NCBI RefSeq assembly: GCF_900107195.1
Contig: NZ_FNPB01000006.1
Location: 1-64,000, forward strand
Direction of reading: 5' to 3'
Length of the DNA: 64,000 nt
Source: Halobellus clavatus
GTDB taxonomy: Archaea > Halobacteriota > Halobacteria > Halobacteriales > Haloferacaceae
The translations under genes and the position numbers were made by a program. Position 1 is the first letter of the stretch. Each line of letters opens with the position of its first letter. Below are positions 18,961-49,677 of the stretch, one piece after another. The notes below the pieces were generated by a model. That model saw only the letters and a program-made list of their open reading frames with translations. It was not told the DNA's origin and did no database searches.

Positions 18961-20670
18961 GTGTTTTGTGAGACCGATTTGGTAGAGCCACTCGGCGCGC
19001 TCGTCGTCCTCGCAGCCTTCGCGGCCGCCACCGGCACGCTCGGCCTGATGTGGTACTTGCGCCAGTACCGCGAGACAGTCAGCGCTCGGTGGTTCATCCT
19101 CACCCTGGGTGCACAGGCCGTCGTCGCCGCCGCGTACGGTGTCGGCTTACTCACCTTCGATCCGGTGCTTCGCCGGTACGCGGAGGCGAGCGTGTGGATC
19201 GGGTTGGTCTGGCTCGGCCCGTCGTTCCTGGCATTCGCCCTGAGTTATACGGGCCGGACGGATCTGTTCCGTTCGCGTGGCTTTCGGCTCCTGTTCGCCG
19301 TCCCCGCCGCTGGCAGTCTGCTCGCGCTCACCCATCCGGCGCACGACCTCCTGTGGCGCGGATTCCGGCTCTCCCCGCTGTTCGAGGTCGCAACGGTCCG
19401 GTACGCTATCCACCCGCTCGGCTACGCTCTCGCGCTGGCTTCCCTCGCCGCCGCCGCCGTCGCGGTCCTGCTGTTAGTCGAGACCATCGTCGCGTACGGG
19501 CCGCTGTACCGACGCGAGGCGATCGCAGTCGCGGTCAGCACGCTCCCGCCGGCCGCGGCGTTCGTTGTCTGGCTCGCCGGGGTGGGTCCCTGGCCGGAAC
19601 TCAATCTCGGCGTGGCAATGTTGGTCCCGCACGTCCTCTTCGACACCTACGCGTTCGTGGGCACGCATATGTTCGAGACCAACCCGACGACCCAGCGGGC
19701 CGCCGCACGGAGCGCGCTCGACGACCTCGACAGCCCACTGCTCGTCGTCGACACCGACAGCCGGGTGGTGAAACTGAACGACCGCGCTGCGTCGCTGTTC
19801 GATGTCGACTCGACGGCGCGACGACCGACGGATTTTGAACGGCTCATCGGCGTCGACCTCGAGACGGTGCTCCGGGACGGAGAGATCGAGGTCGACGGGG
19901 AGCGGGGAGCCGTCTTCTCGGTCTCCTACACCGAACTGACCGATCCCGCCGGCACGGAGGTCGGGGGGCTAGTGGTGCTCTACGATATCTCGACCGAGCG
20001 CCAGCAGACCCAGCAACTCGACGTCCTCAATCGGATCCTGCGGCACAACCTCCGGAACGAACTGACAGTCATCCTCGGACGCGCCCGGTTGATCGAGTCC
20101 TCGCCGGATGCCGACCCCGGGTCGCAGGCCCGCACGATCCGACAGGCCGGCGAGCGACTCCAGTCGATCTCGGAGAAAGCGCGCGACTTCGCGCGGGTCG
20201 TCGAACGGGACGTCCAGTCCGTCGATGTCGACCTCGATTCGATCGTCGCCGACGTGGTCGAAGCGAGTAGCGACGAGCACCCTGCCGCGTCCGTCGACGT
20301 CGACATCGACGTTTCGCGACCGACGGTCCGGTCCGACCCGGAACTTCTGTCTCTGACGCTCTCGACACTGGTCGAGAACGCGGTGGTTCACGCCCCGACG
20401 GAGCCGACAGTATCAGTTCGCGTCACCGACGGGGCCGACGGCACGATCCGCATCGAGATCCGCGACAGCAATCCGGAGATCGATGCGGCCGAACTCGCGC
20501 CCATCGAATCGGGAACCGAGACCGCACTGGAACACGGCAGCGGCATCGGCCTCTGGGTGGCCACGTGGTGTGTCTCCGCCCTGGGAGGCGACCTGCACTT
20601 CCGATACGAGGACGGGAACGTCGCCGTCGTCGACGTGCCGGCGGGAGACGAGCCGGACTCGGAGGCGTGA
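18961..20670 (+). CDS. 7TM-sensor histidine kinase with PAS domain
   Basis: A 569-residue membrane sensor kinase. Seven hydrophobic segments fill residues ~8-225, matching the histidine-kinase N-terminal 7TM region, then a PAS-like domain (SPLLVVDTDSRVVKLNDRA, ~255-345), a dimerisation helix with the phospho-acceptor in LRHNLRNELTVIL (His ~362), and an ATPase domain with the N box (LSTLVENAVVHA) and G box (EHGSGIGLWVA). It should phosphorylate a response regulator, but none is encoded nearby. The listed start is GTG; a TTG at 18979 is as likely because the TATA-like TTTATTA sits at 18946-18952. The signal sensed is unknown. Confidence 0.88.
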   Translation: MFCETDLVEPLGALVVLAAFAAATGTLGLMWYLRQYRETVSARWFILTLGAQAVVAAAYGVGLLTFDPVLRRYAEASVWIGLVWLGPSFLAFALSYTGRTDLFRSRGFRLLFAVPAAGSLLALTHPAHDLLWRGFRLSPLFEVATVRYAIHPLGYALALASLAAAAVAVLLLVETIVAYGPLYRREAIAVAVSTLPPAAAFVVWLAGVGPWPELNLGVAMLVPHVLFDTYAFVGTHMFETNPTTQRAAARSALDDLDSPLLVVDTDSRVVKLNDRAASLFDVDSTARRPTDFERLIGVDLETVLRDGEIEVDGERGAVFSVSYTELTDPAGTEVGGLVVLYDISTERQQTQQLDVLNRILRHNLRNELTVILGRARLIESSPDADPGSQARTIRQAGERLQSISEKARDFARVVERDVQSVDVDLDSIVADVVEASSDEHPAASVDVDIDVSRPTVRSDPELLSLTLSTLVENAVVHAPTEPTVSVRVTDGADGTIRIEIRDSNPEIDAAELAPIESGTETALEHGSGIGLWVATWCVSALGGDLHFRYEDGNVAVVDVPAGDEPDSEA

Positions 20671-25032: not shown

Positions 25033-26664
25033 ATGCGAATGGGAGGCGAGAGCCTGAAACGATTCGTGGACGAACTCGACTCCGTGGTGTTCGGGGTCGG
25101 GTTCTCGGTATCGCTCGTAGCCATTCTGGTCTTCTTCCTCAATCCCGACGCGTCAGCGGACCGGATGAGCCAAATAAACGAATACCTCTGGACGGAGTTT
25201 ATGTGGGTGTACATCGGGACGATGTTCCTGATGGTGACGTTCAGCCTCTGGCTGATGTTCGGTCGCTGGGGCAACATCAAACTCGGCAAGCCGAACGAGG
25301 AACCGGAGTTCGGCCTGTTGTCGTTCTTCTCGATGATGTTCTCGGCCGGCATCGCAGCCGGAATCGTGTTCTGGGGGCCGGCCGAAGCGCTCGCGCACTA
25401 CGAGACCGTTCCGCCGCTGATCGGCGCTGAAGCCGGGACGCCCGGGGCTGCGGTCGGCGCTATTCAGTACACGCTCTTTCACTGGGGGATCTCCTACTGG
25501 GTGCCGTACCTGATCGTCGCGCTGCCGATCGCGTACTACGCCTTCCGGAAGGACGCGCCGATGCGTGTCTCGACGCTCATCGCCCCATTCGTCGGCATCG
25601 ACAACCTCGACGGTTTCTGGGCGAAGACGATCGACGTCCTCGCGGTGTTCGCGACGATCGGCGGCATCGCCACGACGCTGGGCTTCGTCGGCCGGCAGTT
25701 CCTCACCGGCCTGCAGTACACGGCCGGCGTGTCGCTCGGCGACGCCGGGACCGTCGTCGTGATCACCGGTCTAACAGTCGCCTTCACCGTCTCGGTGACG
25801 CTCGGCGTGAAGAAGGGGATCGCGCGCGTCTCACTGTTCAATATGGCCGTCTTCGCTGGTCTGGCGGTCGTGACGTTCCTCCTGGGACCGACGAACTACA
25901 TTATGAACACCGGGCTCCAGGCCGTCGGGAGCTACTTCGGTGAGTTCCTCTCGATGAGCCTCTACACCAACGCGACAGGGACCGGCGAGTGGGTCGGTAA
26001 CTGGACGGTGTTCTACTGGGCCTGGGTGTTCTCCTGGGCCTGGGTGTTCTCCTGGGCGCCCTTCGGCGGACTGTTCGTGGCCCGCATCTCGAAGGGGCGG
26101 ACGATCCGACAGGTCGTCGCGACGGCGCTCATCGGCGCGACGGCCTCGACGATTCCGTGGTTCCTCACGATGGGCGGGAGCGCCATCTTTTTCGAGCGCA
26201 ACAACATCGCGCCGATGCTCCAGATGGTCGACCAGTACGGCGTCTCCGTCTCCGGCTTCCCGCTGTTCGGGGCGCTCCCGTTCGGCGGCGTTCTTTCGGC
26301 GGTATTTATGCTGCTCGTGGTGACGTTCTTCGTCACGTCGGCGGACTCCTCGACGCTGGCGCTCGGGATGCTCACCACCGGCGGCAAAGAGCACCCCTCG
26401 ACGGTCAATCGGCTCATCTGGAGTGGACTGATGGGCGGGTTGGCGTCTCTGCTCATCGTCGGCGGCGGGATCGACGCCCTCCGTTCCTCCGCCATCATCA
26501 CGGGCTTCCCCTTCGCGCTCATTTCGATCGTCGCGATAGCCGGGATGGCGTGGGAGTTCCAGTCGGTTTCACCGCTGCTCTCGTCGGATCAGGACCAGAG
26601 CCCGTCGGTGGCGCAGTCGGACGACGCAGCCCCGGTTGCCTCCTCGACCACCGACGACGACTGA
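25033..26664 (+). CDS. BCCT family compatible-solute transporter
   Basis: A 543-residue, twelve-helix carrier of the betaine/carnitine/choline family, used by halophiles to import osmolytes with Na+. Landmarks: FSAGIAAGIVFWGPAEALAH (helix 3 with the GxG Na+/substrate motif), LFHWGISYWVPYLIVALPI, and the tryptophan box of helix 8 followed by RISKGRTIRQV. At that box an 18-bp tandem duplication gives WAWVFSWAWVFSWAPF where relatives have a single WAWxxSWxPF, so six extra residues sit in the binding helix. The ATG at 25033 is chosen; 25039 is equally possible. A strong hairpin lies upstream. Confidence 0.92.
   Translation: MRMGGESLKRFVDELDSVVFGVGFSVSLVAILVFFLNPDASADRMSQINEYLWTEFMWVYIGTMFLMVTFSLWLMFGRWGNIKLGKPNEEPEFGLLSFFSMMFSAGIAAGIVFWGPAEALAHYETVPPLIGAEAGTPGAAVGAIQYTLFHWGISYWVPYLIVALPIAYYAFRKDAPMRVSTLIAPFVGIDNLDGFWAKTIDVLAVFATIGGIATTLGFVGRQFLTGLQYTAGVSLGDAGTVVVITGLTVAFTVSVTLGVKKGIARVSLFNMAVFAGLAVVTFLLGPTNYIMNTGLQAVGSYFGEFLSMSLYTNATGTGEWVGNWTVFYWAWVFSWAWVFSWAPFGGLFVARISKGRTIRQVVATALIGATASTIPWFLTMGGSAIFFERNNIAPMLQMVDQYGVSVSGFPLFGALPFGGVLSAVFMLLVVTFFVTSADSSTLALGMLTTGGKEHPSTVNRLIWSGLMGGLASLLIVGGGIDALRSSAIITGFPFALISIVAIAGMAWEFQSVSPLLSSDQDQSPSVAQSDDAAPVASSTTDDD
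26020..26055 (+). repeat. 18-bp perfect tandem duplication inside BCCT gene
   Basis: Two identical 18-base units (26020-26037 and 26038-26055), in frame, duplicate six codons of the conserved helix-8 motif. Confidence 0.95.
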
Positions 26665-33873: not shown

Positions 33874-33953
33874 CGGGTCCTGGTGCCGTTCGCTCGGCGA
33901 CTTCATCTCTGGGGACCGGAACATACAGACCGCGCCGAGCCGATGCACTGCGT

Positions 33954-34986: not shown

Positions 34987-35074
34987 TGGCGGCGATACGC
35001 GGTGGCCGCGCAAAAACGTACTCCTCGTGGCCGCCGGCGGGCTCCGCGAGCGTCTCCGTGCCTTCGGCCGACGA

Positions 35075-36613
35075 TCACTGGTCCGGGCCCTCGGGACGGT
35101 CCAGCGATCGTCCGCCACCCGGGGGCTCCGAGCCGACCGGCTCGCCGCTGTGACCGTCGAACGGGAACTCGACCGTCCAGTCGGTCTCGTCGTCGGCGGC
35201 GTCGAGGAGCGTCGTCGCGTCTTCGAGCGTCTCGAAGAGACGGCCGGCAATCACGTCCGTGACGATCGTCTGCAACTCGTTGGGAGACGAGTCGGCCTCC
35301 GCGAGGATCCCCAGGGGGATCTGTCCGCCGGCCATATCGGCGTGCCCGCCCGCGCTACCGATGGCACCGAGGGCGTCTCTGAGCGTCTCTCCGAGGTCGA
35401 CGTCGGTGCCGCGGGCCCGGCCGGAGACGTACACCGTCCCGTCGGTGAACCCGTAGACCACAGCGATTTTGACTCCTTCCATATTCAGGATCCGGTCGGC
35501 GGCCTGCGCGAGGGCGTCGCGGTCGGAGATCGACCCCACGTTCGTCGCCAGCGCGTCCCCGCGAACGTCGCGGTTCCGGATGGCTCGGGCGAGTGTTTCC
35601 ACGACGGCGGAGGTCATACTCGGTGACTCGACGCGTTCAAGGACCGAGAGATCGGCGTGCGTGAGCAACCACGCGGCCGCCTCGAAGTCGATCGTCGTGA
35701 CCTCACGCGTGAAGTCGTCGGTATCGACCCGGATCCCGAAGAGCAGCGCCGTCGCCAACGACTCGTCGGGGTCGATGCCAGCGCGGCGCAGATAGTCCGA
35801 CAAGAGCGTGCTGGTGGCTCCGATGTCCCGTCGAATGTCGACGAAGCGTGCCTCTACGGGTGCACGCGGGGGATGGTGGTCGACGACGATGTCGACCGTC
35901 GTTTCCTCGGGGAGGCCGTCGTTGACGCCGGGCCGGGAGTGATCGACGAGCGCGACGCCCCCGTAGTCGTCCATCGACGAGGCGTCGTCGAGTTCGACGA
36001 GGTCGAGTTCGAGGAGGTTCACCAGTGCGCGGTTCTCCTGATGAGCGATGTTGCCGAAGTAGCACGCGTCCGCGGCGACCCCGGCGCGGGAGGCGACCCG
36101 CGCGAGCGCGAGTGCACTGGCGATCGCGTCGGGATCAGGGTTGTCGTGCATCACGACCGCCAGCCGACCCTGCGTGCTGCGGAGCGTCGCGAACAGCCGC
36201 TTGAGCCGTTCGGCCCCCGGGCCACGGGTCAGGTCGTCCAAGCGATCCAGCAGCGCGCGCCGGGCGTCGACGACCTGATCGACCACCTGTCGAAACCGCG
36301 TCTGCGCCTCGGGATCGGCCTCACCACTCAGAAATCCGACGATCTCCGCATCGGGGAAGTGTTCGCGGGCGCGCTCGGCCGCGTCGACGTTGGTGCCGTC
36401 GTTACCGCCCGCAACGTAGACGAGATCCACCGCCGGCGGGTACGCCGTCGGATCGTCCAGCGAACGCCGCTCGATATCGACATCGCTCCCGATCCCCTCC
36501 GGCAACGTGCAGTCGTCGCCGACGACGATCGTCAGCTCGCCGGGCCACTCAGCGAGGCGCTTGACGGTCCCGCGTGCGGTCGACCCGCACCCGAGGACCA
36601 GCCGGCGTTGCAT
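35075..36613 (-). CDS. DHH-family phosphoesterase with N-terminal Rossmann domain
   Basis: A 512-residue protein. Residues ~1-120 form a Rossmann/TrkA-N-like domain (RLVLGCGSTARGTVKRL). A DHH/DHHA1 phosphoesterase follows: MHDNPDPDAIASALALA (~157-175), VALVDHSRPG, DIVVDHHPPRAP with the signature DHH, and the C-terminal GGHADMAGGQIPLG of DHHA1. Relatives degrade nano-RNA, pAp or cyclic dinucleotides. The tail is acidic and disordered. ATG at 36611-36613 chosen; the open frame runs far upstream but without conservation. Confidence 0.87.
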   Translation of the reverse strand: MQRRLVLGCGSTARGTVKRLAEWPGELTIVVGDDCTLPEGIGSDVDIERRSLDDPTAYPPAVDLVYVAGGNDGTNVDAAERAREHFPDAEIVGFLSGEADPEAQTRFRQVVDQVVDARRALLDRLDDLTRGPGAERLKRLFATLRSTQGRLAVVMHDNPDPDAIASALALARVASRAGVAADACYFGNIAHQENRALVNLLELDLVELDDASSMDDYGGVALVDHSRPGVNDGLPEETTVDIVVDHHPPRAPVEARFVDIRRDIGATSTLLSDYLRRAGIDPDESLATALLFGIRVDTDDFTREVTTIDFEAAAWLLTHADLSVLERVESPSMTSAVVETLARAIRNRDVRGDALATNVGSISDRDALAQAADRILNMEGVKIAVVYGFTDGTVYVSGRARGTDVDLGETLRDALGAIGSAGGHADMAGGQIPLGILAEADSSPNELQTIVTDVIAGRLFETLEDATTLLDAADDETDWTVEFPFDGHSGEPVGSEPPGGGRSLDRPEGPDQ

Positions 36614-43217: not shown

Positions 43218-43592
43218 TCACCCCGACGTCCCGGTCGTCATCTCGGTGCTCGTGGATTCGGTCATCGTCTCATTCACGGTCTCTGTCTGCATAGCACTGT
43301 TCATCGTTTCAGTCTCCGTCGAGTCGTTCATCGTCTCGGTCTCCATCGAGTCGTTCATTGTCTCGGTCTCCATCGAGTCGTTCATCGTCTCAGTTCCCAT
43401 CGAGTCGTTCATCGTCTCAGTTCCCATCGAGTCGTCTGTGGTCTGGCCGTCCATCGACGCCTCGGTCGATTCGTCGTCACCGGCCGTCTGTGCCCCGTCA
43501 TCGGACCTGGTCGTACACCCGGCCAGCGCGGCGGCCGTTGCCGCCCCGACAGCACGCACCAGCCGCCGTCGTGTGAGGATGGAGTGACTCAT
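43218..43592 (-). CDS. Tat lipoprotein with nine-residue repeats
   Basis: A 124-residue secreted lipoprotein. The signal LTRRRLVRAVGAATAAALAGC has the twin Arg and lipobox (Cys ~26). Almost all the rest is a 9-residue repeat of the form DSMxTETMN, five clear copies and two worn ones, with no globular domain. It precedes the molybdoprotein gene by 6 bases and is probably co-transcribed. It may be a spacer or surface linker, or a degenerated gene. Methionine in each repeat (often two) is striking and could bind metal or act as an oxidant sink; that is speculation. Confidence 0.8.
   Translation of the reverse strand: MSHSILTRRRLVRAVGAATAAALAGCTTRSDDGAQTAGDDESTEASMDGQTTDDSMGTETMNDSMGTETMNDSMETETMNDSMETETMNDSTETETMNSAMQTETVNETMTESTSTEMTTGTSG
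43321..43428. repeat. 27-bp tandem repeats encoding the lipoprotein repeat
   Basis: Four consecutive 27-base units starting GAGTCGTTCAT at 43321, 43348, 43375 and 43402, differing at a few positions, with degenerate copies on both sides. Confidence 0.9.
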
Positions 43593-48660: not shown

Positions 48661-49677
48661 GTGACAGACGATGGGGACGAGTCCAGCGAGCCGATCGCTC
48701 CCGATCCCGACGCCGAGGAGCCGGGGTTCGAGAGCGGTGCCGACGTCCCCGACGGTGAACCGCTCGACATCCCGCTGCCGTGGAACACGATCCCGGACGA
48801 GGGCGCCGAGGATGCGGCTTCTGAAGCCGATGCGTCAGACACGGACGACGGCGGCGACGGCATAGGCGCGGACACCTCCGAGGATCGCCCCGTCCCAGCG
48901 GAGTTCGAGGAGCTCCGGTTCGTCGGCCCGAAGTCTGCGCCGCTCCTCGCGGCGTCGGAGATCTCGGTCGCGGACATCTGGAAGAAGCGCGTCTCCTACC
49001 GGGATCTGACGGACGCGGGCGTCAACCCCGGCGTCGCGGCGAAGATCCGGCGAGAGCACTCACTGTCGTGGTCACTCGACGGCGGCGGGACCGATCTGGA
49101 TCGGCGCTCCGACCAGATTCGCGGACTCGACGACGACGAACGCGCGTGGATCGCCGAATCGTCGGGCTGGTCAGAGTCGGATTCGGACGCCGACGCGGAG
49201 GCCGACGGATCTGGGAACGCGACCGCCGGTGAGGCCGTCTGGCAGGCTCGAACGAACGAACTGGCGGACGACGACGATTCCGACACGGACGGGTCGCCGT
49301 CGACGGCCGGCGAAGCGGCGTGGCGCGCCGGGGAGATGACAGCGGTCGACGAGGCCGAGGACGCCGACGACACAGACGACCGCGATGCCGACGACGCCGA
49401 CCGCGACGCCGCCGCCGCCGACCGCGATGCCGCCGCCGCCGACCGCGATGCCGAGTCGATCTGGCGGGACCGGAGCGCTCCGACCCCGCTGACGGCCGTG
49501 GACGGCTTCGACGACGACGTCGCGACGACCCTCCGAAAGGCGGGGATCGGCTCGGTTCGACGGCTCGCGACGGCGGATCCCGAGAGCGTCGCAGACGCGC
49601 TCGACATCGACCTCGAACGCGTGCGATCGTGGCGGCAACGCGCCCGCGACCACGACGCCGACGGGCGCGGTCAGTAA
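48661..49677 (+). CDS. Acidic protein with two helix-hairpin-helix-like domains
   Basis: A 338-residue, extremely acidic protein. Two short folded segments sit in disordered sequence: [21 protein letters not shown] (~83-103), and near the end [21 protein letters not shown] plus [15 protein letters not shown] (~280-315). Both read like helix-hairpin-helix modules of the kind that bind DNA. Between them are low-complexity Asp/Ala repeats (RDAAAAD, ~245-265). Haloarchaeal family, function unknown. GTG at 48661 chosen as start; the much longer open frame upstream runs through the ABC gene on the other strand and is spurious. Confidence 0.75.

Follow-up and report, generated by a model that had tools for sequence, protein, structure and literature searches.

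An in-frame 18-bp duplication in TM8 of a BCCT-family transporter gene of Halobellus clavatus, seen in one genome among the relatives searched

The window analysed here is a stretch of 64,000 nucleotides from Halobellus clavatus (assembly GCF_900107195.1, contig NZ_FNPB01000006.1, positions 1 to 64,000), and it contains an intact gene for a transporter of the BCCT family (Table 1). The probable gene start is the ATG at 25033 or the one at 25039; the mechanical open reading frame opens at TTG 25000. The protein matches PF02028 over profile positions 1–481 of 485 with 485.5 bits (cut-off 27, E 1.9e-145). Its modelled fold is that of BCCT carriers (LeuT type), with TM-scores of 0.81–0.87 by query length against chains of TmaT, BetP, BetT and CaiT among the best 50 of the 58 matches that had E <= 0.001. 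For the NCBIfam model TIGR00842 (bcct) the window protein scores 399.8, below the curated cut-off of 407.55, whereas a single-copy orthologue (L004) reaches 409.9; differences besides the insertion described below contribute to this shortfall, too. The gene is flanked by a MATE-family gene on one side and by a DUF7545 gene, followed by a ZIP gene, on the other. In one relative the BCCT gene is flanked by ORFs of equal lengths (474, 281 and 697 residues). Two further BCCT genes are present in the same genome, L002 and L003. The two identities to the window gene are 40% and 36%, and the TIGR00842 score is 329 for L002 and 450.7 for L003. Both genes lie on contig C18, separated by about 15 kb, and L002 reads WTVWNWAW instead of WTVFYWAW.

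Table 1. Coordinates of the BCCT gene and of the repeat-associated features within it.
Feature	Position	Strand	Evidence
BCCT-family transporter gene, intact frame	25033..26664	+	no internal stop; dN/dS against five orthologues
Lengthened first part of TM8, coding for WTVFYWAWVFSWAWVFSWAPF; single-copy form WTVFYWAWVFSWAPF	26002..26064	+	ortholog comparison, aligned rows
Period-18 array, 2.8 copies, 96% matches (one mismatch allowed)	26007..26057	+	
Perfect period-18 tract (duplication)	26016..26057	+	24 successive matches at offset 18

Comparison with the five orthologues yields dN/dS values of 0.11–0.14, which indicate purifying selection. Such low values are as compatible with a young lesion as with a functioning transporter. 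A degenerate gene was considered and rejected, as no other lesion was seen in the frame or in the ortholog comparison. Among 533 alignment columns, 13 residues are private to the window protein (1–7 in four of the orthologues, 18 in the fifth); a longer branch may be the source of these residues.

The initial annotation described an exact 18-bp duplication, and bases 26020–26037 are indeed identical to bases 26038–26055. This frame is one of several equivalent frames, as the 18 extra bases sit within the perfect tract (Table 1), inside which the exact breakpoint is undefined. A chance repeat was rejected: when the codons of the gene were shuffled 2000 times, no self-match run at periods 6–100 reached 24, the longest being 16. 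The run is not the longest in the window, as two other arrays contain longer exact runs, one of 39 bases at 43370 and one of 25 bases at 49408. The first of these runs, the longest exact self-match of the window at periods 6–100, belongs to a 27-bp tandem array within 43299–43457 (43299–43435: 5.1 copies, 92% matches), and a 21-bp tandem array is found at 49377–49454 (3.7 copies, 91% matches).

The six residues that the duplication was said to add to a Trp-rich helix are in frame and fall where the protein aligns with TM8 of relatives of known structure. All residues of the TM8 motif WTxFYWxW-x3-W-x-PF are present, and its fixed spacing is broken by the six extra ones. This broken spacing concerns the allele at hand, not the descent of the family. 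The duplication of a TM8 unit is real, in frame and, among the genomes searched, private, and it affects a member of a known transporter family.

The initial annotation further regarded the length of this helix as conserved and proposed an alignment with relatives. Such alignment agrees with the claim, and the insertion was seen in this genome only. BCCT matches were obtained in 64 of the 99 genomes searched (own genome included). The five orthologues of the same genus (L004–L008) are 88–92% identical to the window gene and carry one copy each of the 18-bp unit. Pairwise comparison over about 18 kb each displays an 18-base insertion in the window at 26016–26041 in all five cases. The remaining gaps of at least 6 bases, read against the ORFs, are mostly intergenic or at gene ends. 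This does not hold for a 14-base gap at 20326 and a 6-base gap at 26595, each present in one comparison, the latter within the BCCT gene in its variable tail; further gaps occur near 33874 and 35055–35090.

Normal TM8 spacing was found in 111 of 111 other BCCT loci inspected (L002–L112), and an insertion throughout a subfamily, the refuting case named beforehand, was looked for and is absent from all of them. For 106 loci the spacing was scored by script, and five (L002, L017, L035, L036, L063) were read by eye. The loci stem from two sources, some of them possibly representing the same gene, and most of the weaker matches of the 99-genome search lie outside this set. Since the peptide WTVFYWAW served in part to find 80 of the loci, these lean to the normal motif, whereas the matches from the 99 genomes do not. 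Scans of 17 genomes of the genus (fixed spacing) and of 392 of the order (any spacing between 12 and 39 instead of 9) retrieved the lengthened form from one genome each, in both cases the own genome. The normal pattern is found in 223 of these 392 genomes, with the own genome counted via another BCCT gene. The order-wide scans require exact FYW and WxPF codons, so that genes with other residues and insertions before FYW escape them.

A tblastn search with a 45-residue stretch matched 148 plasmid records. Three plasmid-borne BCCT genes drawn from the best 15 of these matches (Haloarcula sp. JP-L23, Natrinema sp. SYSU A 869, Haloterrigena salifodinae) were checked; all of them have the one-copy form given in Table 1 and share a WAWVFSW core. 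At the Natrinema locus (L119), the annotation places two BCCT coding sequences side by side with an overlap (1–600 and 486–717 of the locus), which looks like a single gene interrupted by a frameshift. A literature search on tandem duplication with BCCT, transporter and transmembrane helix found no paper, nor did one on slippage and short repeats. Among the relatives searched, the duplication is private to this genome and not a subfamily trait.

If one copy is left out, two 15-bp arms become apparent that are 18 bp apart and identical at 14 of 15 positions; at the five orthologous single-copy sites the arms match at 12–13 of 15. The coding motif VFYWAW-VFSWAP is an imperfect repeat in itself, and the repeat at this site is closer at the DNA level because of the codons used in this genome. 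Slippage at this pre-existing imperfect repeat appears to be the most likely origin of the duplication: slippage or misaligned recombination between the imperfect 15-bp arms would produce one extra 18-bp unit. The arrangement does not always expand, since another genome (G380) is single-copy although its codons there are almost identical (by eye, 35 of 36 bases). The arm score of 11 in G380 comes from a shorter stretch and is not comparable with that of the other sites.

From the identity of the two copies it had been concluded that the event is recent or that the copies are kept uniform. This does not follow. The closest relatives in the sample are separated from the window gene by a dS of 0.39, one 18-bp unit offers about three synonymous sites, and the chance that two copies stay identical over much of such a branch is roughly a quarter (both hand estimates). 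Identity would be unremarkable if the duplication were older, and because of the few synonymous sites per unit it cannot alone serve to date the event.

According to the part of the TmaT study available to us, Trp325, Trp326 and Trp329 of TM8 are located within substrate boxes, and alanine at these positions largely impaired transport (PMC11708041). Trp326 and Trp329, unlike Trp325, are described there as conserved only among carriers of quaternary ammonium compounds (PMC11708041). For DddT, the accessible portion of the report lists Trp313, Phe316 and Tyr317 of TM8 as likely entry-path residues and describes enhanced transport for the W321A form (PMC13270143); going by this portion, a carrier lacking that Trp may still function. 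The equivalents of the three entry-path residues in the window protein are W321, F324 and Y325 (hand mapping). Together with T322 they show no variation across the 59 aligned rows, one row being the window protein. In the shifted register, the places of W321, T322, F324 and Y325 hold Ala, Trp, Phe and Ser (by hand).

The equivalent of TmaT Trp326 is Val in the window protein and in the five single-copy orthologues, as derived from the ungapped single-copy form; the gapped HMMER alignment of the duplicated protein puts this equivalent elsewhere. The Val (26044–26046) occurs in 7 of 59 aligned rows, including L004–L008, independently of the duplication, and the same Val is found in the plasmid-borne genes of Haloarcula, Natrinema and Haloterrigena (L119–L121). 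Val-bearing BCCT genes perhaps form a subgroup with an uncharacterised substrate. The window protein scores 422.1 for the glycine betaine BCCT equivalog NF047988 (cut-off 650), which is also missed by L004 (431.5), L002 (358.4) and L003 (497.8). In view of this score and of the Val, the "betaine site" of the initial annotation is too strong a term. Since the Trp326 equivalent is Val, the substrate may not be betaine.

AlphaFold2 models were computed for the duplicated form and for a single-copy control, given 59 and 58 sequences, respectively. Overall, both forms are folded equally well (mean pLDDT 89.2 and pTM 0.88 each). TM8 is predicted as one helix at 319–345 in the control and as a helix at 327–348 in the duplicated form. 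The latter corresponds, with an offset of 3, to control residues 324–345, which places the second copy in the native position in the model. Confidence over residues 311–320 and 321–330 is 53 and 42 in the duplicated form, as compared to 84 and 90 in the control; the six alignment columns without relatives may account for part of this low confidence. By prediction only, the extra residues are pushed outward, to the N-terminal end of TM8. Because this register is set by where the aligner put the gap, the model is not independent evidence for it.

We propose, with a probability of roughly 0.55, that a private slippage duplication displaced the outer end of TM8 and weakened or changed uptake, the effect perhaps being cushioned by the other BCCT genes. 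As the unit repeats the sequence of the helix itself, the second copy could take the normal place beside the substrate, and the six extra residues would shift to the outer, N-terminal end of TM8 in the LeuT-fold carrier. In the shifted register, Trp, Thr and Tyr of the outer end, all of them invariant, would be displaced, by which uptake would most likely be weakened or changed. The two other BCCT genes, or a weak need, may let the cell tolerate the lengthened carrier. However, these genes, at 40% and 36% identity, may carry other substrates, which would speak against such cushioning. Reduced activity and the reason for its tolerance are guesses on our part, and putative harm or altered specificity of the carrier seems plausible. 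A working allele would serve as a natural experiment on the extent to which a LeuT-fold carrier tolerates lengthening of its substrate helix. An allele that fails would be an ordinary slippage mutation that happened to be sampled in a single genome. A VFYWAW-VFSWAP pattern with matching codons can render a conserved helix slippage-prone.

A serious rival, which we nevertheless consider rather unlikely, is a neutral insertion, with TM8 re-forming in register, a harmless outer bulge and unchanged transport. The added unit is self-similar, so that residues from W332 onward are native, and the confidently predicted fold, its match to TmaT and BetP and the low dN/dS are consistent with this explanation. 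However, invariant positions would be displaced, and TM8 length is otherwise constant in the inspected loci, so such insertions seem to be normally removed.

A sequencing or assembly error would account for the presence of the repeat in one draft assembly of 30 contigs and for the single copy in every relative inspected. This minor rival appears improbable, as the whole array spans just 51 bp, the reading frame is kept and the site is located 26 kb from the contig start. Common reads are longer than 51 bp, and assemblers collapse repeats more often than they expand them. Least likely, and highly doubtful, is an adaptive change of specificity, in which the carrier would work with the outer half of TM8 shifted by six residues and take up other solutes or be gated differently: in the portions of the sources available, TM8 residues of DddT (PMC13270143) and TmaT (PMC11708041) are assigned to the entry path and the substrate site, but no second genome carries the insertion in the searches made, and no cluster of changes accompanies it (2–4 residue differences per orthologue over 130 surrounding alignment columns).

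Among known systems, the trimethylamine transporter TmaT (BCCT; 8zw8) is the best solved relative by sequence (E 1.9e-78), and its chain 8zxk_C is the best fold match to the window model (TM 0.87 and 0.94). Equivalents of TmaT Trp146, Trp151, Tyr154, Trp325 and Trp329 are present in the window protein (hand mapping), which differs from TmaT by the Val at the Trp326 equivalent (ungapped, single-copy form) and by six extra TM8 residues. The DMSP carrier DddT, likewise of the BCCT family, represents the second-best group of solved sequences. DddT shares the WTVFYWAW motif with the window protein and is devoid of the TM8 insertion, its Tyr324 aligning with Trp338 of the window protein. BetP, the glycine betaine carrier of Corynebacterium glutamicum, belongs to the same family and has the same fold. 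It is 30–31% identical to the window protein in fold alignments, the latter being six residues longer in TM8. The same-genus orthologues L004–L008, whose regions align with the window along the stretch, carry one 18-bp unit only.
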